From a candidate division WOR-1 bacterium RIFOXYB2_FULL_36_35 (GTDB lineage: Bacteria > Margulisbacteria > WOR-1 > XYC2-FULL-46-14 > XYC2-FULL-37-10): a stretch of DNA of 33,775 nucleotides. Positions 10,053-33,427 of the stretch are shown here, one piece after another. Under the pieces are notes generated by a model, which had not been told where the DNA came from, ran no database searches, and saw only the letters and a program-made list of their open reading frames with translations. Every line of letters begins with the position of its first letter. Position 1 is the stretch's first letter. The translations under genes were made by a program, and so were the position numbers. The stretch lies in the NCBI GenBank assembly GCA_001771505.1, contig MEUA01000063.1, forward strand, positions 5,497-39,271. The letters run 5' to 3'.

Positions 10053-10077
10053 AACCCCGATTAGGATAATCGGGGTT
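10053..10077. repeat. 25-bp dispersed palindrome, loop GGA
   Basis: Perfect inverted repeat AACCCCGATTA / TAATCGGGGTT around a GGA centre, between atpC and the first TPR gene. Weak flanking complementarity (GTCGCCCCA at 10028-10036, TGGGGGAC at 10081-10088) could extend a hairpin. No T-run follows, so a classical intrinsic terminator is not evident, although the position after atpC is where one would be expected. Confidence 0.9.
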
Positions 10078-12788: not shown

Positions 12789-12807
12789 CTTATATTTATT
12801 ATGGGAC

Positions 12808-12962
12808 CGTTGCGAAATGGTCATTCCCGTGAAAACGGGAATCTAGTTCTCAGAAAACAACCCCGATTATTATAATCGGGGTTAAGATGGAGCCCCGCTT
12901 TCCTGCTTGCCAGTAGGCACGGCGCGGGGCTGACAAATTTCAAAAACTGGCATCAGGCAACA
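12808..12962 (-). mobile_element. MITE-like core element carrying a nested palindrome
   Basis: Ends are CGTTGCGAAATG and CATCAGGCAACA, degenerate versions of the TGTTGCGTAATG / CATTACGCAACA termini of the copies at 15651-15759 and 20739-20872, in opposite orientation. It has the same two internal hairpins (TCATTCCCGTGAAAACGGGAAT, and a longer GC-rich AGCCCCGC...GCGGGGCT with an enlarged loop). A 25-bp palindrome sits between GAAAAC and AAGATGGA. It ends 4 bp before the stop codon of the KS-alpha gene. No coding capacity; presumed non-autonomous. Confidence 0.75.
12859..12883. repeat. 25-bp palindrome nested in a MITE-like core, loop TTA
   Basis: Perfect AACCCCGATTA-TTA-TAATCGGGGTT. Read in the core's orientation, it is inserted at exactly the same site (AAAAC / AAGATGG) as the copy at 20797-20821, and the loop is the reverse complement of that copy's TAA. 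Confidence 0.9.
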
Positions 12963-12966
12963 GCCC

Positions 12967-14262
12967 CTAAGAGTATTTTTTAAGGACTACAGCGGCATTT
13001 TTTGATCCGAAGCCTATGCTGTTTATTAGCGCAGTTTTTACTTCAATTTTTCTTCCGGTGTTTGGCACATAATCAAGGTCGCATTCCGGATCTTTTTTTT
13101 CGTAATTTATGGTTGGAGGGATAAAATTGTCTTTAATTGCCATTGCGCAAGCTGCAATGCTCCCCGCGGATGCGCCTCCAACCGCGTGTCCAATCATCGA
13201 TTTGATTGAGCTTACAGGGACAAAATAGGCGTGTTTTCCTAAAGCTGTTTTTATTGCAAGTGTTTCCGTTTTATCGTTTAATGGAGTAGATGTTCCGTGT
13301 GCGCAGATATAAGATAATTCTTCGGGCATAATATTTGCATCTTGAAGGGCCATTTGTATTGCCCGCGCATCTTCTTCTCCCGTTGGAAGTGGTTTTGTTG
13401 CGTGATATGCGTCGCATGTGGCGCCAAACCCAGCAACTTCAGCGTAAATAAAAGCTCCTCTTTTTAACGCATGTTCTTCGCTTTCCAGAATAAAAATCCA
13501 TGCGCCTTCCCCGATTACAAAGCCGTCTCTGTCGATATTAAAAGGGCGACAAGTACTTTTTGGATCATATTTGTTGCTTATTGAAAGGGCCCCCATGCAG
13601 CTGAAGGCTTCTGCTATACTAGAAGTTATGCATGCGTCTGCTCCCCCTGCAAGTGCAACTTCTAAAATCCCTGAATTTATCATGTTTGTCGCAATTCCTA
13701 TGGCATCATTTGCGCTGGTGCAACCATTAGAAAACAATAAACTCGGACCGTCAATTCCTAATATATTTCTTATGTTTTCAAGGAGCGCTCCGGCAAAAGA
13801 GGCAGACATTGTGTCTTCGCTTACATTCTCTGAAATGTTTTGAAAAATTTTTGAGATCTCTTTCTCATAAAAGCCTAATCCTCCCGCACCACTCCCCAAA
13901 AATATCCCAATTTTGTTTTTTTCATGGTTTTTTAGGATGAACTTCCCGTCTTCTATTGCTTCTATGGCAGCTGATGTTGCCAATTGTGATGCCCGAGCCA
14001 TTTTTTTGGACTTTTCTTTGGGGAAGTAGTTTGTGCCATCAAAGTTTTTTATTTCAGCCGCAATTTTTGTTGGATGATTTGATGTATCGAAAAAAGTTAT
14101 AAAATCAATGCAATTTACTCCTGCTTTTAATGATTTCCAAAAAGACTTTACCCCTATACCGTTTGGAGCGATAGCTCCAATTCCTGTTATAACAATTTTG
14201 CCCCGATTATCATAATCGGAGCTTGAAATTCCTCCTTTATGTTTTTTAATTGTGTTTAACAT
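12967..14262 (-). CDS. Beta-ketoacyl synthase (FabF-like), catalytically intact
   Basis: 431 residues, thiolase-fold ketosynthase that would condense acyl and malonyl units on an ACP. The triad is complete: C181 in SNGCTSANDAIG, H322 in CAHGTSTPLND and H359 in SSIKSMIGHAVGG. The core starts at KIVITGIGAIAPNG (residue 22), where most KS proteins begin. The first 21 residues are extra, and residues 14-21 (SSDYDNRG) are encoded by a dispersed palindrome. The ATG at 14262 overlaps the end of the upstream ketosynthase gene by 7 nt, indicating coupling. A GGAGG motif lies inside the extension, suggesting the original start was displaced. No ACP, ketoreductase or acyltransferase gene is nearby, so this is more likely an orphan type II PKS/FabF-like pair than housekeeping fabF; this is inference. 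Confidence 0.92.
   Translation of the reverse strand: MLNTIKKHKGGISSSDYDNRGKIVITGIGAIAPNGIGVKSFWKSLKAGVNCIDFITFFDTSNHPTKIAAEIKNFDGTNYFPKEKSKKMARASQLATSAAIEAIEDGKFILKNHEKNKIGIFLGSGAGGLGFYEKEISKIFQNISENVSEDTMSASFAGALLENIRNILGIDGPSLLFSNGCTSANDAIGIATNMINSGILEVALAGGADACITSSIAEAFSCMGALSISNKYDPKSTCRPFNIDRDGFVIGEGAWIFILESEEHALKRGAFIYAEVAGFGATCDAYHATKPLPTGEEDARAIQMALQDANIMPEELSYICAHGTSTPLNDKTETLAIKTALGKHAYFVPVSSIKSMIGHAVGGASAGSIAACAMAIKDNFIPPTINYEKKDPECDLDYVPNTGRKIEVKTALINSIGFGSKNAAVVLKKYS
14200..14222. repeat. Dispersed palindrome inside the KS-alpha reading frame
   Basis: GCCCCGATTA-TCA-TAATCGGAGC, one stem mismatch. On the - strand it is translated as residues 14-21 of the ketosynthase. It is immediately followed by GCTTGAAATTCCTCC (14221-14235), a flank also found beside repeats at 18338 and 23120. 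Read on the - strand that flank supplies the GGAGG near the KS gene start. Confidence 0.8.
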
Positions 14263-15572: not shown

Positions 15573-15605
15573 GTAACAGAAAGCAGCAAAAATAATTTAT
15601 GATTT

Positions 15606-15794
15606 AACTCCGATTATTCATAGACGAACAGAATTCTAGCATGGTGGGCTTGTTGCGTAATGATAGTTTTTGCAATTTGTCATCCCCGCGAAAGCGGGGA
15701 TCCATCTTGTTTTTTGAGAAATAGATTCCTGTTTTCACGGGAATGACCATTACGCAACAGACCCATGGTGTTGGAAATTTGAATAATCGGGGTT
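15606..15794. mobile_element. 189-bp composite MITE-like element, copy without nested palindrome
   Basis: Outer 15-bp inverted ends AACTCCGATTATTCA (15606-15620) and TGAATAATCGGGGTT (15780-15794) enclose a 109-bp core (15651-15759) with 12-bp inverted ends TGTTGCGTAATG / CATTACGCAACA. The core holds two hairpins (CCCCGCGAAAGCGGGG and TTCCTGTTTTCACGGGAA). About 97% identical to 20694-20907 (five substitutions by eye) but 25 bp shorter. The TAA stop of the downstream - strand methyltransferase gene overlaps its right end. No ORF inside. Confidence 0.85.
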
Positions 15795-16590
15795 AACTCT
15801 CTTTTTGCAAAATTGCGATATAATCCAGCATTGATTCTGCAAATAGCCGTTCTTTTGGGTAAAATTCTGCAGATAAAAAGGGATGCAAATATCTGGCTTG
15901 TTCGGGATAATGGGTTGGAAATTCGTTTTGCATAATATGGATACCGCCTGGTTTTAATACACGATAAACTTCCTTGAAAACACTTTTTAAGAAGATCGGA
16001 CAACCTAATCTTGGATTTAAGCCATTGGCAGAATCAATTATACTGCAATACATAAAATCAAGAAAATGATTTGTGAAAATTAGATCTAAAGATGAATCCT
16101 CGAAGGGTAATTGTTTTGCATCATGTTGTAGAACTTTAATTCCAAGTTCGTTAGCATATGAAATAGCAATAGGATCGATATCAATTCCTACTATCCCTTG
16201 TATTTCTCTTACTCTTTGAAGAAAAAACAGGTAGGGACCATAGTTTGAGCCTAATTGAGCGCCTAAAATGTCTTTTCGGTCGCCAAAAACAATGCGTATC
16301 GTAATATCAATCGGTCGGAATATTGCTACAGATGAAAACTCATAATTATCGGGATTGGTTAAAAGAAAACAGGCATGTTCTTTTAATTGCCAAATACCAT
16401 CACCCAATGCCTTAATACGATTAAATCTGTTTTGCATTTCATAGAAATTACGATATCCGCTCAATCTTGCAATTTGTTCGGGCGCTTTTTTTATTTCCGG
16501 AGGGTTGTAATCGTATAACTTATTTCCGGCATTAATTGCCTGTCGGACTTGTTCGGATGAAATATTTTTCAAACTTATTCTTGATAACAT
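15793..16590 (-). CDS. SAM-dependent class I methyltransferase
   Basis: 265 residues. An unrecognised N-terminal segment (~100 residues) is followed by a Rossmann-type methyltransferase (Methyltransf_11-like). Motif I is LGAQLGSNYGPYL, the motif II acidic region is VGIDIDPIAISYANE, then VLQHDAKQLPFEDSSLD and the post-motif EVYRVLKPGGIHIMQNE. The substrate is unknown. No clear Shine-Dalgarno precedes ATG 16590, and a 25-bp palindrome lies 34 nt upstream. The TAA stop is made from the right end of the composite element at 15606-15794, so the present C-terminus (AILQKES) may have been set by that insertion. Confidence 0.88.
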   Translation of the reverse strand: MLSRISLKNISSEQVRQAINAGNKLYDYNPPEIKKAPEQIARLSGYRNFYEMQNRFNRIKALGDGIWQLKEHACFLLTNPDNYEFSSVAIFRPIDITIRIVFGDRKDILGAQLGSNYGPYLFFLQRVREIQGIVGIDIDPIAISYANELGIKVLQHDAKQLPFEDSSLDLIFTNHFLDFMYCSIIDSANGLNPRLGCPIFLKSVFKEVYRVLKPGGIHIMQNEFPTHYPEQARYLHPFLSAEFYPKERLFAESMLDYIAILQKES

Positions 16591-16623
16591 TTTAAATATG
16601 TCGGTTTTTTATGTGAATCATTT

Positions 16624-16648
16624 CATCCCGATTAGGATAATCGGGGTT
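16624..16648. repeat. 25-bp dispersed palindrome, loop GGA
   Basis: CATCCCGATTA-GGA-TAATCGGGGTT, with one G-T wobble and one outer mismatch. It lies between the divergently transcribed methyltransferase (start 16590) and deiminase-like gene (start 16720), so it occupies the shared upstream region, unlike the copies at gene ends. Confidence 0.85.
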
Positions 16649-16719
16649 CAAGTGATTTTGATTTGTGTTGTTTTCTGATGTAATTTTTCTGTTTTTTTAA
16701 CGATAATTATTAAAATATC

Positions 16720-18291
16720 ATGTTAAGTACTGTACAATCTTATTCATCTGTGGGGAATACAAATTTTAAAGTAAACTCTTTCCCTTGTTTGCATCAAGAA
16801 AGGGCTTCTTCAAGCCCTGCTTCTAATTGCGAGGGGAAGATTAAAGAAATCTTTTTTTATCCCTATCATTCTTCTTGTTGTTTTTATGATGAAATTTATG
16901 ACAGAACGCCTGGGTTTGCCAAATATGTCAATATTCAATTACTGCTTATTAAGGAATTTTTACGGATTTTTGACTGCGATGTGAGCTTGTCTCTGTTAAT
17001 TCCGACTAAAGGGAGAAAAGATTTTATTATTGAAGAGTTTGTAGGTTGTTGTGAGTCTATGGGCATACCTTCCTATGGACGGATTAATTTTATTGACTTT
17101 CCGATTACGGATATGTCTTGGATTTACCTGAGAGATAAGGCTCTTGCCAAATCTATGAGGGGGATGATTTGGCCAAATAAATTTTCTAAAAATATTGATG
17201 TTTTAAAAGCTTTTGATGCAGAATCTATCCTTTCTCCTTTTTCTTTTGAAGGAGGAAACGTAAGATGTGCTGACGGGTTTATGTATATTGGAAGTGATAC
17301 AGTTAGTTTCAATAGGGATATTTTGGCCATAAAAAGTGGTTCTGAGCAGGAAGTATTTGACGGCGTTAATAGGATGTCAGACTGGTTTCAATCTCAAGTG
17401 GTTATGTTTGGGGATGCTTCTTTGGTATTATCAAAACAACCAATAAAGCATATAGATTTATTTTGTACTTTTTTGGGTGGTAGAAAGGTGGTTGTTGGCG
17501 ATGTAAATTATGCTATTGATATAATAACAAAACGAAAAGATTGGGAATCTATATTGATGTCCAGCGTTTTTGATATAGATAGGTTAGTTCATAAACAACA
17601 GATGGGTAACGAGGACTTTTATTCTTATAGTCCTTTTAATGCTATAGATCCAATAAGTTTTAAACGTAATCCAACGGCAGTAAAAACTTATGTGGCTTTT
17701 CTGGCTTATATATTAAGACAATATAGAAATAGATATATTTATCGTCAGCGTGATGCTGATTTTAAAGAAATTTGGGATGATGGCTCTTTAGGAGAAGGTG
17801 AATTATCTGTTGAAGAAGGATTAAAAATGTTTTCTCTGCCGTTTTCGGACGAAACCATTAAAGATATTTTAGGTGGTTATAATAATGCAGCTGTTTATAT
17901 GGATAGTGTAGCGACACAGTTAAGACAAAGTGGATATGAAGTTTTTCGGTGCCCGTTGTTGCCTCATATTCCTCGTCTTTTAAACGGAATTGGCAGGGAG
18001 ATGAAGGCCCCTCTTATAACTTATAATAATGCTTTGGTTGAATGCTATGATTCTAATAGGATTGTTTATATGCCTGAATATGGACTGAAATTCCCGACAG
18101 TAAATTATAATGGTTATGTTGTCGGGAATGTGTTAAATGAACTTGATATTGAGGCAAGGCATGTGTTTGAAAGAGCTGGAGCTGTCGTGAGAGGAATAAA
18201 TACAGGATTTAACCTGACGACGTTACAGTCGCAGGTAAATTGCATGACCCTTGAAAGAAGAGAAGCATTTAATCCCGATTATTCACGGTAA
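16720..18291 (+). CDS. Guanidine-modifying superfamily enzyme (deiminase/amidinotransferase-like)
   Basis: 523 residues. It shows the scattered motifs of the peptidyl-arginine/agmatine deiminase fold: WIYLRDKA (residues 134-141, the W-x-x-x-R-D element), FEGGNVRC with E177, KHIDLF with H244 and D246, and SQVNCMTLER with C508 as the nucleophile. The Glu/Asp-His-Cys set appears complete, so hydrolysis or transamidination of an arginine-like group is expected; the substrate cannot be told. It is longer than agmatine deiminases (~370), with an N-terminal extension and an insert around residues 330-400. The last residues (NPDYS) and nearly the stop are encoded by the terminal repeat of the element at 18271-18373. 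The start has no evident Shine-Dalgarno; the leader is AT-rich. Confidence 0.78.
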   Translation: MLSTVQSYSSVGNTNFKVNSFPCLHQERASSSPASNCEGKIKEIFFYPYHSSCCFYDEIYDRTPGFAKYVNIQLLLIKEFLRIFDCDVSLSLLIPTKGRKDFIIEEFVGCCESMGIPSYGRINFIDFPITDMSWIYLRDKALAKSMRGMIWPNKFSKNIDVLKAFDAESILSPFSFEGGNVRCADGFMYIGSDTVSFNRDILAIKSGSEQEVFDGVNRMSDWFQSQVVMFGDASLVLSKQPIKHIDLFCTFLGGRKVVVGDVNYAIDIITKRKDWESILMSSVFDIDRLVHKQQMGNEDFYSYSPFNAIDPISFKRNPTAVKTYVAFLAYILRQYRNRYIYRQRDADFKEIWDDGSLGEGELSVEEGLKMFSLPFSDETIKDILGGYNNAAVYMDSVATQLRQSGYEVFRCPLLPHIPRLLNGIGREMKAPLITYNNALVECYDSNRIVYMPEYGLKFPTVNYNGYVVGNVLNELDIEARHVFERAGAVVRGINTGFNLTTLQSQVNCMTLERREAFNPDYSR

Positions 18292-18373
18292 AACCAGAAA
18301 TTAACCCCGATTAGGATAATCGGGGTTCAAACAGGCAGCTTAAAAATTCCTCCCAGCATGAATAATAGGGGGT
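18271..18373. mobile_element. Composite repeat element overlapping the end of the deiminase-like gene
   Basis: Left end AATCCCGATTATTCA (18271-18285) lies in frame within the CDS, giving N-P-D-Y-S. Right end TGAATAATAGGGGGT is at 18359-18373. A 25-bp palindrome (18303-18327) is nested between them, followed by GCTTAAAAATTCCTCC (18338-18353). Same layout and nearly the same length as the element at 33327-33427. Ends are slightly degenerate. Confidence 0.65.
18303..18327. repeat. 25-bp palindrome nested in a composite element, loop GGA
   Basis: Perfect AACCCCGATTA-GGA-TAATCGGGGTT, identical to the copy at 10053-10077, 12 nt after the stop of the deiminase-like gene. Confidence 0.9.
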
Positions 18374-18395
18374 AATGCTGACTTTTCTGTTAGCT

Positions 18396-18425
18396 AACAT
18401 AGCCGCTGAAAGGCTTATGTTTTTA
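18396..18425 (+). terminator. Possible intrinsic terminator
   Basis: AACATAGCC pairs with GGCTTATGTT (one bulge) around a short loop GCTGAAA, followed directly by a T-run (TTTTT). It is about 105 nt after the stop of the deiminase-like gene, and would end its transcript if the palindrome upstream does not. Confidence 0.4.
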
Positions 18426-18724
18426 ATGGGAATAGGTCATAAATTTAAATTAAGTAGATTTTTTTAATTGTTATAAAAAAATAAGCGAGGCAAATCATAA
18501 TGTCATCAAAAATATCAGGAATAGTTGTTTATCCCTCATAAAGGGATTTTGTTCATTTAAATTCCTCTTAGGCGTATTTTTTACTTGTAAAACTTATCGT
18601 TTGTTTAATATGAAAATTTCGCTTAAATTTGTATGTTGTTGGTCTATAGAAATTTATTAGTATTTTTTTCGATATATAGATAGGAAATTATAGTAAGATT
18701 TGCAGTTTAAATGAGGGATAAAAA
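18426..18724. other. AT-rich intergenic region, no gene seen
   Basis: About 300 nt of AT-rich sequence upstream of the MidA-like gene. A 13-codon ATG frame at 18500 is too short to support. A small hairpin ATCCCT/AAGGGAT followed by TTTT lies near 18530-18550. The last ~20 nt carry the ribosome binding site (GAGGGAT) of the next gene. No convincing -35/-10 pair was found. Confidence 0.5.
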
Positions 18725-20695
18725 ATGCTTTTGCCTTGTAATGGGCCTATTCATACTAATCATACTAGAGCTAAACCTACTCCTAACGTTGAGCCTTCTT
18801 TTCAAAAGAAGCCGCTATTATGTGGAACGCTTATAGATCAAATTACTCAGGAGATTAGAAGAAGTCCTGATCGGCGCATCTCTTTTGCCCGTTTTATGCA
18901 AAGGAGCTTATATCATCCACATTATGGTTATTATTCCTCAGGAAAAGTTAATATAACTCACATAACTTCTGGAGGGCATTTTATTACTCATCCTGAAGAT
19001 TTTTATCCTAGATATAGCTATGGTTTGGCAGAAAACCTGTTATGGATGTGGCAGACCATGGGAAGGCCTGCAAAATTTGATGTAGTAGAAATGGGGGCCG
19101 GAAATGGTAGGATGGCTAAAGCTTTTTTGGATTATTCAAGAATTTATACTCCGGAGTTTTATAAGGCTGTGGATTATCAGATTGTAGAGATAAGCCCTTT
19201 TTTAAGATTAAAACAAACTCAAATATGCTCAGATCACAACGTTAAACATATTAACGGATCAGCTATTAATCCTAATATTAAGGGGATTAGGGGTGTTCTT
19301 CTTTCCAATGAACTAATTGACGCTTTTCCTGTACACAGAATTATTTATCATTCTAACCTTAACTTGGTTAAGGAATTATATGTAACAGAAGGAGATGGGA
19401 CTTTCCATTTAGTAGGGGGAGGGATTTCTGATCCTGAGATATTAGATTACTTGCAAATGATAGATTCTTGTCCCCCCAATGGCACAAAGCGAATTGTTAA
19501 TCTGAATATGTTGAGATGGCTTGATAGATGTGTCGCAGCGCTGGAAGAAGGCTATATATTAACTATGGATTATAGCAGCACATTTGCTTTTCCGGGGCAG
19601 GAGCTTAGGTGTTACGGGATTGAAGGAAATGGGCCTTTGGCTTGGGGGTGCAAATATCCGGGGGAAGTTGATATAACAAGTGATTTGCATTATGATGTTT
19701 TGCTTAAGGCCGCAGAGAGAAGGGGTTTGCAACAGGTTTTTTTTGGAACAGAACAAGATTTTTTTGCGCCTATAGGCGCGCTCTGGCCAAAGAATATAAT
19801 CCCTTTTGCTGCTTTTCTTTTTTCGAAAAATGTTCTTAGCTCTACAAAAACTAACCCTACTAAACTTATTATTCTGGATAAAAAACCTATTTTTGAAATG
19901 GGGTGGTTTTTCTTGCCGATTGCTGAAAAATTATTTTCTTATTATGGTAGGGCTGTTTTTTCTTTAGAGAACAGTGATTGTGAATCGCTGGAAGAATTAG
20001 CATGTAAAATTGCTTTTATTTTTCAAAGGGAATCAGGGGTTTATGATTTTAGCAAGGAACGGCTTGAGCATTTTAAAAATGTTGTCAAGTGGTTGGAAAT
20101 AGATGATTTGATCATGGGAGAATTATTTTTATTGTTTGAGGAGGGACTTGAAGGGATAAAAACTGGCCAACGCTCAAAAGGAAGTTTTTTCCACATAGAA
20201 GAGGTTCGACCTGAGTTTTTGCGTTCATATCTTGGAGATAACTTTAGAGACGCATTGTTTAATGAAGATGAAAATGAGAAGAAAAAGAGAGTTGAAAAAT
20301 TAATCTCGAAGGGGAATGTAGCAGCCTTGATCAGGCTTTTTGCAGAGGATTCTTCTTTTTATTATAAAACTCCATTTTGCTTAACAGATGCTAATTTGTC
20401 TAAAATGTTTGATTTGGTGGTTAATGCTGTTGTTGACAGTCTATTAACTTTTGATGATAAAGAAAGATCGCAAGTTTATCCTGGCCTAGAGTATGAGACT
20501 TACTTCATTATTTTAGATAAGTTTCTTATAGCGGCAAAGGCAAAAGCCGGTTCTTTGCTATTATCTAAATTTCGAAGTTTGCCAAGACAGAGGAAACTTG
20601 ATATTATTAAACACACGAAAAAGTTTGGATGGATAGAAGAGGTTGTGCAAAGAAATTCTTGGATACTGGCAATAGATTTACTGGCATGTTTTTAA
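18725..20695 (+). CDS. MidA/NDUFAF7-like SAM methyltransferase with extra C-terminal domain
   Basis: 656 residues. Residues ~33-380 match the MidA-type (COG1565) protein-arginine methyltransferase family: RISFARFMQRSLYHPHYGYY (51-70), HFITHPEDFYPRYSYG (85-100), SAM-binding VVEMGAGNGRM (120-130), SNELIDAFPVHRI (194-206) and ILTMDYSS. Such enzymes methylate an arginine in respiratory complex I subunits in mitochondria; the bacterial substrate is uncertain. The C-terminal ~270 residues are a charged, probably helical region not usual for the family and not recognised. GAGGGAT gives a good ribosome binding site. The TAA stop (20693-20695) overlaps the left end of a composite repeat. Confidence 0.82.
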   Translation: MLLPCNGPIHTNHTRAKPTPNVEPSFQKKPLLCGTLIDQITQEIRRSPDRRISFARFMQRSLYHPHYGYYSSGKVNITHITSGGHFITHPEDFYPRYSYGLAENLLWMWQTMGRPAKFDVVEMGAGNGRMAKAFLDYSRIYTPEFYKAVDYQIVEISPFLRLKQTQICSDHNVKHINGSAINPNIKGIRGVLLSNELIDAFPVHRIIYHSNLNLVKELYVTEGDGTFHLVGGGISDPEILDYLQMIDSCPPNGTKRIVNLNMLRWLDRCVAALEEGYILTMDYSSTFAFPGQELRCYGIEGNGPLAWGCKYPGEVDITSDLHYDVLLKAAERRGLQQVFFGTEQDFFAPIGALWPKNIIPFAAFLFSKNVLSSTKTNPTKLIILDKKPIFEMGWFFLPIAEKLFSYYGRAVFSLENSDCESLEELACKIAFIFQRESGVYDFSKERLEHFKNVVKWLEIDDLIMGELFLLFEEGLEGIKTGQRSKGSFFHIEEVRPEFLRSYLGDNFRDALFNEDENEKKKRVEKLISKGNVAALIRLFAEDSSFYYKTPFCLTDANLSKMFDLVVNAVVDSLLTFDDKERSQVYPGLEYETYFIILDKFLIAAKAKAGSLLLSKFRSLPRQRKLDIIKHTKKFGWIEEVVQRNSWILAIDLLACF

Positions 20696-20907
20696 CCCCG
20701 ATTATTCATAGACGAACAGAATTCTAGTAGAGTGGGCTTGTTGCGTAATGATAGTTTTTGCAATTTGTCATCCCCGCGAAAGCGGGGATCCATCTTAACC
20801 CCGATTATAATAATCGGGGTTGTTTTTTGAGAAATAGATTCCCGTTTTCACGGGAATGACCATTACGCAACAGACCCATGGTGTTGGAAATTTGAATAAT
20901 CGGGGTT
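20694..20907. mobile_element. 214-bp composite MITE-like element with nested 25-bp palindrome
   Basis: Outer ends AACCCCGATTATTCA (20694-20708) and TGAATAATCGGGGTT (20893-20907); core ends TGTTGCGTAATG (20739-20750) and CATTACGCAACA (20861-20872). It matches 15606-15794 throughout except five substitutions and one insertion of exactly 25 bp (20797-20821). The element lies between convergent genes and contributes to the stop codons of both: TAA of the MidA-like gene on + and TAA of the unknown gene on -. Confidence 0.88.
20797..20821. repeat. 25-bp palindrome inserted in a composite element, loop TAA
   Basis: Perfect AACCCCGATTA-TAA-TAATCGGGGTT between CCATCTT and GTTTTTTGAG. The related element at 15606 has CCATCTT joined directly to GTTTTTTGAG, so the unit's edges are defined to within a couple of bases. 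Confidence 0.93.
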
Positions 20908-21589
20908 AATCTAATATTCCATGAAGGAAAAGAATAACATTATTTATGTCATTGCTTAAGATTTTTGCTGACATATACATTGTTGTTGCTCCAGTTTCGT
21001 TTTTTTCTGTTTTTACCTCTCTTCCCTCAATTCCACTTAATTTTTCGTGTGTAATAATAATTTTTGAAATTCCCCTTTTTGTCAGCAAGGGAAGTATATT
21101 GTATTGAGGATTAAATATTTGATTTAATCTTTTTAGTTGATACGGGCTCAGAGGTTCTGAAGAAGCAACTTTTATGCCACAAAGAACCTCAGTACAAAGA
21201 CTAATATCTTCTAAGGTTGGGTTTTGAGTAAAATCCATTCCCATCTCATTTAATAGTGCAAGCTCAGGTTTATTTGTGCCTGACAAACTGTAAAAGACTG
21301 GATTTTCGTCATCGCCAAAGGTATGGATATCCAAGCTTTTGGATGCAATGGCCATTGCTAACTCTTTACTTAATACGCGAGTGCTAGCAAAGTTATCATC
21401 TAATTTCATCAATAAAGCTGGGTCTTTGTCAAGTACACACAAAGCATGGGGAGTAATTAAATAAAACATTCGTAAAACATTGGGAAAGCTTAAAACATTT
21501 TTTACATCTTTAACTTCTACATTTGCAGCATCCAATTTAGTCCAAATCCGTTGATGAAGATCAATTCTTCTTACACTCGCATTACTCAT
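20906..21589 (-). CDS. Hypothetical protein, 227 aa
   Basis: Not recognised. A soluble, mixed alpha/beta-looking protein without signal peptide, membrane helices or Cys/His clusters. It ends NDINNVILFLHGILD. The start at 21589 is well supported by a strong Shine-Dalgarno (TTAGGAGGT). The stop codon TAA is formed by the right end of the adjacent composite element. It is divergent from the radical SAM gene with 170 nt between starts. The shared AT-rich spacer must hold both promoters, but no clear consensus boxes were seen. Divergent pairing could mean a functional link to the radical SAM enzyme; this is only context. Confidence 0.75.
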   Translation of the reverse strand: MSNASVRRIDLHQRIWTKLDAANVEVKDVKNVLSFPNVLRMFYLITPHALCVLDKDPALLMKLDDNFASTRVLSKELAMAIASKSLDIHTFGDDENPVFYSLSGTNKPELALLNEMGMDFTQNPTLEDISLCTEVLCGIKVASSEPLSPYQLKRLNQIFNPQYNILPLLTKRGISKIIITHEKLSGIEGREVKTEKNETGATTMYMSAKILSNDINNVILFLHGILD

Positions 21590-22959: not shown

Positions 22960-23263
22960 CTCCGATTATTAGATGGTGTATAAATAGTTGTGTAAATTGT
23001 CATTCTGACGAAAGTCAGAATCCATTTCTCTAGTAAAACATAGATTCCTGCTTCCGCAGGAATGACATAAATAGAATTTACACAACATTCTTGACACTAT
23101 CGATTATATTATAATCGAGGCTTAAAATTCCTCCTAGTGTTTGTGGTCATTCCCGTGAAAACGGGAATCTATTTCTCATAAAACAATATGGATCCCCGCT
23201 TTTGCGGGGATGACAAATTGCAAAAACTATCATTACGCAACAGGCCCTCCTAATAATCGAGGT
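22958..23263. mobile_element. Composite repeat region with two different MITE-like cores
   Basis: Outer ends AGCTCCGATTATTA (22958-22971) and TAATAATCGAGGT (23251-23263). Inside: core B (22987-23086) with inverted ends GTTGTGTAAATT / AATTTACACAAC and hairpins TTCTGACGAAAGTCAGAA and TTCCTGCTTCCGCAGGAA; a degenerate palindrome (23100-23118); the flank GCTTAAAATTCCTCC (23120-23134); and core A in reverse orientation (about 23139-23242), right end CATTACGCAACA, left end eroded. It fills the whole gap between the radical SAM gene and the lipoprotein promoter. No ORF. Confidence 0.7.
23100..23118. repeat. Degenerate member of the palindrome family
   Basis: TCGATTAT-ATT-ATAATCGA: 8-bp perfect arms and 3-nt centre. 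It keeps the GATTA/TAATC inner arms but not the CCCC/GGGG outer part. Confidence 0.55.
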
Positions 23264-33326: not shown

Positions 33327-33427
33327 AACCCCGATTATTCATACCTCGAGTAACTGTTTGACAATTTGTTGGTTATTGATTCTGACGTGAACCCCGATTA
33401 TCATAATCGGGGTGAATAATCGGGGTT
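33327..33427. mobile_element. 101-bp composite repeat element with nested palindrome
   Basis: Perfect 15-bp inverted ends AACCCCGATTATTCA (33327-33341) and TGAATAATCGGGGTT (33413-33427), sharing bases with a nested 25-bp palindrome at 33390-33414. Around the left end, CGAGGTAT (33319-33326) and ATACCTCG form a further hairpin. It occupies the region between the divergent phosphoesterase gene and the partial gene at the right edge. No coding capacity; no other element seen in this ~300-nt gap. Confidence 0.78.
33390..33414. repeat. 25-bp palindrome nested in a composite element, loop TCA
   Basis: AACCCCGATTA-TCA-TAATCGGGGTG; last base mismatched and shared with the outer right terminus TGAATAATCGGGGTT. 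Confidence 0.88.

Follow-up and report, generated by a model that had tools for sequence, protein, structure and literature searches.

A 21-bp palindrome with 4-bp target duplications as the shortest member of a gene-less element family in a WOR-1 bacterium

Two nearly identical repeats that differ in length by exactly one palindrome raise the question of whether so short a sequence can be a mobile unit. The repeats lie in the window, a stretch of 33,775 bp (contig MEUA01000063.1, positions 5,497 to 39,271, assembly GCA_001771505.1) from candidate division WOR-1 bacterium RIFOXYB2_FULL_36_35, one at 15606-15794 (189 bp) and the other at 20694-20907 (214 bp). They are separated by five substitutions and one exact block of 25 bp, AACCCCGATTATAATAATCGGGGTT (20797-20821), the sole length difference, at whose place the shorter copy reads CCATCTTGTTTTTTGAG. 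Their alignment spans 214 columns, 25 of them gapped, at 86.0% identity; 184 of the 189 ungapped columns agree (97.4%). A sequence-only reading had described this pair and held that the palindrome comes and goes as one piece. Direct reading and alignment agree with the description, and the block is present or absent at the identical base in more than 30 genome-wide copies of a miniature inverted-repeat transposable element (MITE). The recurrence is not chance, given this same-base presence and absence and a reversed-pattern control that returns 0 palindrome copies against 74-76 matches to the true pattern. The palindrome, at 21 bp, belongs to a family of gene-less elements with identical ends and is the smallest of them.

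Both window copies are composites, in which an outer element of the 71-bp type holds an unrelated MITE of about 121 bp with ends GGGCTTGTTGCGTAATG and CATTACGCAACAGACCC. Because each has its own TTAA duplication amid surroundings unrelated to those of the other, they are transposed composites, and because they have the outer element in common, the pair is the valid internal control that it had been taken for. The mobile unit is better seen as 21 bp (20799-20819) with 4 bp added than as 25 bp: members of the family duplicate exactly 4 bp of target, which makes the net gain 21 + 4. The sequence-only reading had seen no target duplication beyond perhaps TT, which is right for this MITE site, with its flanks TTAA and TTGT, and wrong for the family. 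A model with a 2-bp duplication (and a 23-bp unit) was dropped, since a 4-bp duplication makes the ends symmetric and accommodates sites flanked by TTCA/TTCA, TGAA/TGAA and TAAA/TAAA.

The source genome, here G000, is a 1.95-Mb WOR-1/Margulisbacteria-like metagenome-assembled genome (MAG) in 67 contigs, with the window in G000:C63; MAG sequence is the basis of all results given here. The exact core CCCCGATTA-NNN-TAATCGGGG has 74 copies in G000, and with up to two mismatches there are 149 copies in 273 kb of G000 stretches. Pairing identical ends gives units of discrete length (21, 33, 53, 71 and 95-97 bp), to which the composites add 185 and 210 bp. As in MITEs generally, terminal inverted repeats, CCCCGATTA(TTCA)...(TGAA)TAATCGGGG, are found at both ends of these 21- to 210-bp units (ends that would bound an autonomous element read CCCCGATTATTCA...TGAATAATCGGGG). 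The target duplications have a fixed length, again as in MITEs: they are exactly 4 bp in all length classes and of TTAA, TTCA/TGAA or TTTA/TAAA type, with TTAA the commonest target and TGAA/TTCA, TAAA/TTTA and TCAA also used. Of 70 free 21-bp palindromes, 32 are flanked by the same 4 bp on both sides (shuffle mean 16.8, maximum 27 of 1000) and none by the same 5 bp; asymmetric duplications number 11 and inverted-only ones 5. The elements of 53-97 bp have exact 4-bp duplications in 42 of 54 cases (shuffle mean 18.1, maximum 27 of 2000), and the 29 that are not TTAA/TTAA include 17 direct and 0 inverted. Since the asymmetric flanks of these longer elements are direct repeats and never inverted, mere palindromic extension is ruled out.

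The 21-bp unit also appears to propagate by itself. The loop types of the palindromes form lineages (GGA/TCC, TCA/TGA and TAA/TTA), and the commonest, GGA/TCC, with 29 of the 70 free copies, does not occur in the ends of longer elements. In the stretches analysed, each of the 75 instances of CCCCGATTAGG falls within an intact or mutated 20/21-bp palindrome and none within the end of a longer element, which is why deletion of longer elements in place does not explain this lineage.

Insertion can be followed by comparison with G002, a genome of the same family whose palindrome-bearing contig matches MEUB01000035.1 of candidate division WOR-1 bacterium RIFOXYB2_FULL_37_13, and which is syntenic with G000 at many loci. 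This one outgroup genome, its stretches partly masked, has clean orthologous empty sites for 21-, 33- and 71-bp copies, the filled copy being longer by the element plus 4 bp. At C33:8284 (21 bp, TTCA), G000 reads GCGTTCTTCA-[21 bp]-TTCATAAGGC and G002 reads GCGTTCTTCATAAGGC, with 89% identity downstream. At C10:61355 (71 bp, TTAA), G000 reads TTTTTTATATTAA-[71 bp]-TTAACCCC and G002 reads TTTTTTATATTAACCCC, with flanks identical over the 86 bases compared. Empty orthologous sites are likewise found for C26:5944 (71 bp, TTCA) and C41:31760 (33 bp, TTAA), and C33:18078 is a weaker TTAA case.

Genome-wide scoring of MITE copies, as the sequence-only reading had proposed, gives 18 filled and 14 empty copies in the set used for the tree. 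The 15606 copy is therefore not the single deletion derivative that would have undone the idea, and variation is also seen in a second filled/empty series and in the empty sites of G002. Some MITEs are nearly perfect pairs: L003 (filled) and L034 (empty) are otherwise identical, and in L026 and L046 the palindrome is the only difference over their common length. The state barely follows the MITE tree, with 9 changes by parsimony (shuffles 7-13, mean 10.9). Filled MITEs read CATC-TTAA-[21]-TTGT, and the empties have TTGT in 13 of 14 cases and TTAT in one. All filled copies have the same imperfect flanks and so probably derive from one insertion; given TTGT in the filled flanks and in nearly all empties, repeated independent insertions at this site are unlikely. 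One insertion, followed by repeated precise loss or by exchange between copies, fits better. The state conflicts with 15 of 16 informative columns, many of which also conflict mutually, and left and right MITE halves conflict in 31 of 55 pairs; these data are compatible with loss and with exchange alike. At the window pair either direction is possible, and the 15606 copy may represent a precise loss or a converted copy instead of a site that was never filled. Among filled MITEs the 3-bp loop is found in both orientations, TAA and TTA, with 6 changes on the tree, a hint that the loop was inverted or the palindrome re-inserted.

The second series consists of 71-bp elements and their 95-97-bp counterparts, in which the palindrome sits in the TGAA of a terminal repeat. 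It spans two 71-bp subfamilies, most copies of which have the palindrome at their right end and three at their left; its insertion is all that distinguishes C16:54501 from C24:52716. Members of the family enter each other as well as an unrelated MITE, after which the composites move as units.

Table 1. Members of the element family and related features in the window (positions in the window; contig positions in the remarks)
Feature	Position	Strand	Remarks
25-bp block lacking in the sister composite	20797-20821		11-bp arms, 3-bp loop
21-bp palindromic element CCCCGATTA-TAA-TAATCGGGG within MITE, filled site	20799-20819		
Palindrome left flank, TTAA	20795-20798		
Palindrome right flank, TTGT	20820-20823		Imperfect 4-bp duplication at this MITE site
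210-bp composite: 71-bp-type outer element, MITE and palindrome	20696-20905	+	TTAA at 20692-20695 and 20906-20909
185-bp composite: same build without palindrome, empty	15608-15792	+	TTAA at 15604-15607 and 15793-15796
MITE core within composite, empty state (CATCTTGTTTT)	15645-15766	+	
MITE core within composite, filled state	20733-20879	+	
MITE copy, filled	12801-12966	-	Palindrome 12861-12881; further insert of ~22 bp in left hairpin loop
MITE copy, empty	23144-23247	-	Right end truncated
Free 21-bp palindrome	10055-10075		TTAA/TTAA duplication; C63:15551
Free 21-bp palindrome, TCA/TGA loop	10972-10992		Degenerate duplication; C63:16468
Free 21-bp palindrome, one end mutated	16626-16646		TTCA/TTCA duplication; C63:22122
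53-bp element	18273-18325		Palindrome 18305-18325 as one end; C63:23769, C63:23801
97-bp element, 71-bp type (family 2)	33329-33425		Palindrome 33392-33412 in TGAA of terminal repeat; outer TTAA duplication; C63:38825
Degenerate palindrome near 5' end of KAS-like (ketoacyl synthase) frame	14201-14221		C63:19697

Taken as a whole, the palindrome is quite probably a 21-bp non-autonomous transposable element that makes a 4-bp duplication, is mobilized in trans by a DDE-type transposase, and entered the MITE before being lost from some copies or exchanged among them. Insertion with exact 4-bp duplication, common ends, nesting, and composites bounded by their own duplications are seen directly, and gain of the palindrome by insertion is well supported. 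The transposase would recognize the family ends with a target taste like that of piggyBac/IS1380, and would insert even a minimal pair of ends separated by just 3 bp. At the MITE site a single insertion would have been followed by multiplication of the filled MITE. Several precise losses could then have come about by hairpin- or duplication-guided deletion or by excision, or alternatively the palindrome could have been swapped between MITE copies by recombination; the 15606 copy would be an empty copy from such a loss or exchange. More tentatively, and with our own leaning slightly on the side of doubt, the 21-bp unit (two 9-bp ends and a 3-bp spacer) might be fully mobile by cut-and-paste with 4-bp duplication and traceless removal, perhaps through a hairpin intermediate, and lie near the minimum transposable size.

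Several observations weigh against this explanation. Exact duplications are absent in 38 of the 70 free copies (through age or another origin), and the flanks at the MITE site are TTAA and TTGT rather than an exact duplication. The MITE phylogeny is weakly supported, and four-gamete conflicts arise often even when the palindrome is disregarded, so that the number of losses may be overstated through recombination among MITEs. PF13701 has 0 matches in the 67 contigs of G000, the search being limited to the families named here; PF01609 (DDE_Tnp_1) has no match there, and a search with PF13843 gave 0 matches, with a control that also matched nothing anywhere. The sole Y1_Tnp match in G000 has an internal stop codon, and the 3.4-kb locus around it contains neither family ends nor palindrome. 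A classical DDE transposase should also have difficulty in synapsing ends only 3 bp apart. The parent transposon may be lost or unassembled. In Haloquadratum, MITEs are mobile without an intact transposase (PMC3119063). With no PF13701 or PF01609 gene and no working control for PF13843, we do not claim membership in IS1380/piggyBac.

Other explanations must be measured against the same evidence. The palindrome could be an original part of the MITE that was lost by replication slippage across its hairpin (with its TT..TT base), nothing being mobile. The uniform TTAA and TTGT flanks of filled MITEs and the TTGT (once TTAT) of the empties are as hairpin skipping predicts, and repeat-guided, trace-free removal of transposons has been described in Haloquadratum, where duplication-guided deletion is proposed for transposon loss (PMC3119063). 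This is unlikely to be the answer, and as a complete account it is refuted: the free 21-bp copies with 4-bp duplications and the orthologous empty sites show insertion elsewhere, the same palindrome in the TGAA of 71-bp elements marks entry into other repeats, and TT-anchored loss should leave imprecise products too, whereas the empties are uniform. It survives as a loss step. Gene conversion or recombination between filled and empty MITEs, which would move the palindrome with no excision or new insertion, draws on the column and half-against-half conflicts and on the copies that are identical but for the palindrome. It accounts for spread among MITEs only, not for free copies, TGAA insertions or the G002 empty sites, and the one private substitution that the 15606 copy carries shows no sign of a conversion tract; we regard it as possible but rather doubtful. 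The ends and target duplications common to both classes would also be expected if 21-bp palindromes arose by internal deletion of transposed 71-bp elements in place, the duplications being inherited. We think this quite unlikely, as independent deletions would not produce the GGA/TCC loop when longer elements' ends lack it, and identical 20/21-bp units also occur inside MITEs and inside 71-bp elements.

Size, hairpin form, intergenic location and the Y1_Tnp remnant bring to mind repetitive extragenic palindromes (REPs) moved as single strands by a Y1 transposase (REP-associated tyrosine transposase, RAYT). The 4-bp target duplications, a perfect palindrome with no GTAG or CGTC tag, and a Y1 locus devoid of such palindromes have already largely excluded this very improbable origin. 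Least credible to us is that the palindromes are transcription terminators or operators multiplied by selection and not mobile DNA at all. Such a role would suit their location (135 of the 149 copies are not within any reading frame of 100 aa or more, in stretches of which 81% is coding when scored the same way) and the filled MITE, whose 12-bp stem followed by TTTTTT forms an intrinsic-terminator-like site at 20796-20822 that the empty copy lacks. It would also suit one copy that is conserved at orthologous loci of the two genomes (G000:C29:46258 and G002:C29:36553), where it lies downstream of an argF-like (carbamoyltransferase) gene with a promoter-like (-10-like) box on one side and a ribosome-binding site on the other. 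Exact 4-bp duplications, nesting, insertion into repeats and empty orthologous sites refute it as an origin, as does the presence in G002, despite its common synteny with G000, of only two copies; function at single sites is possible. The copy near the argF-like gene, evidently an old one, is a possible case of domestication as a regulatory hairpin. Where insertion beside the T-run of the MITE creates the predicted terminator-like hairpin, gains of the palindrome may therefore alter gene expression.

Ultrashort mobile palindromes are known in kind from yeast GC clusters and from cyanobacterial small dispersed repeats (SDRs). The SDRs, described in the 2008 work of Elhai and colleagues, are reportedly 21-27 nt long and of high copy number, are said to lie inside minitransposons and copies of themselves and to be present or absent at otherwise identical sites, and reportedly prompted the proposal of an RNA intermediate. 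By that definition the 21-bp units are similar in being repeated and embedded, here in a MITE and in the TGAA of 71-bp elements. They differ from the SDRs (SDR1-8) in phylum and apparently in sequence, and their exact 4-bp duplications and ends common with longer elements point to a DNA transposase. Nor are they confined to Nostoc relatives or other cyanobacteria: in a collection of 84,980 genomes, from which close neighbours of the window's own genome may be missing, the exact 25-bp palindrome turns up in just the WOR-1 genome and a single Clostridiaceae MAG. The exact core has 74 copies in G000, 1 in G002 and 0 in the other 72 genomes of the phylum searched, and a census of 1.05 Mb of G002, partly masked with N, revealed no comparable palindrome family. 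Viral contigs contain no palindrome (5 matches to the 16-mer end, about chance or fewer), and Rfam has no match in the window.

Bacterial MITEs (RUP, Correia/NEMIS and ERIC types) are similar in terminal inverted repeats, target duplications, intergenic location, lack of genes, composite and nested insertions, and filled/empty sites; examples from a review of them span roughly 105-168 bp, with TA as the usual target (PMC2229807), whereas the smallest member here is 21 bp, essentially two ends, with TTAA-like 4-bp duplications. REP and REPIN sequences with RAYT are also intergenic palindromes of 20-40 bp, and excision of REP doublets as a unit is reported (PMC3116915, PMC3733652); here, by contrast, the hairpin foot has no GTAG/CGTC tag, flanks are of TTAA/TTCA/TAAA type, no RAYT is linked and target duplications are present. 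The GC clusters of yeast mitochondria are palindromic units of 42 nt whose short direct repeats are putative target duplications (PMC4478555); they similarly show rapid gain and loss and merge into composites, but are organellar, longer, unrelated in sequence and flanked by 2-3 bp duplications. In piggyBac/IS1380 elements a 4-bp TTAA duplication accompanies seamless excision, with ends starting in CCC in classic piggyBac (PMC7351741, PMC10140906). The TTAA-like target and CCC start here are resemblance only, the target being relaxed (TTNA/TNAA) and no IS1380 transposase being found in the genome. The Haloquadratum repeats are similarly mobile without an intact matching transposase and frequently nested, but the SMRs among them make no target duplication, unlike this family (PMC3119063). 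What appears new, on the sequence comparisons made, is that in an uncultured phylum a 21-bp member has both orthologous empty sites and a link, through its ends and target duplication, to longer MITE-like elements.

The unit ranks with the smallest pieces of mobile DNA for which empty sites can be demonstrated, and it sets a very low length floor for one with proper target duplications and verified empty sites. It would link ultrashort mobile palindromes of obscure mechanism, such as SDRs, to ordinary transposon ends, and provides natural filled/empty pairs for telling insertion, precise loss and exchange apart.

Some further features of the MITEs deserve mention. Left-half copies L042, L043, L045, L047 and L051 stop at CATCTT, and in three of them that very end holds a palindrome with a GGA or TGA/TCA loop and TTAA/TTAA flanks, which suggests that insertion there has happened more than once. 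Palindrome-mediated translocation was considered for the half copies that stop at a palindrome (L042, L043, L045, L047) and dropped for L045, whose flanks are syntenic in G002; those of L051, a half copy that has no palindrome, and of L050, a right-half copy, are syntenic as well, so in-place events suffice at all three loci. An unrelated palindrome-like insert, CCGTGCC...GGCAGGCAGGA (22 to ~39 bp), occupies the left-hairpin loop of two MITEs, the window copy at 12801-12966 and L037 (C28:14300-15300), and is possibly another tiny mobile unit. At G000:C13:365-1636, ~1.27 kb in G000 has ~14 bp in its place in G002, and carries an unassigned open reading frame with a MITE and palindromes at one side. 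In the window itself, the degenerate palindrome at 14201-14221 lies just inside the 5' end of the ketoacyl-synthase-like frame 12967-14262 (minus strand) and adjoins GGAGG, and the start of that gene may have been reshaped by it.

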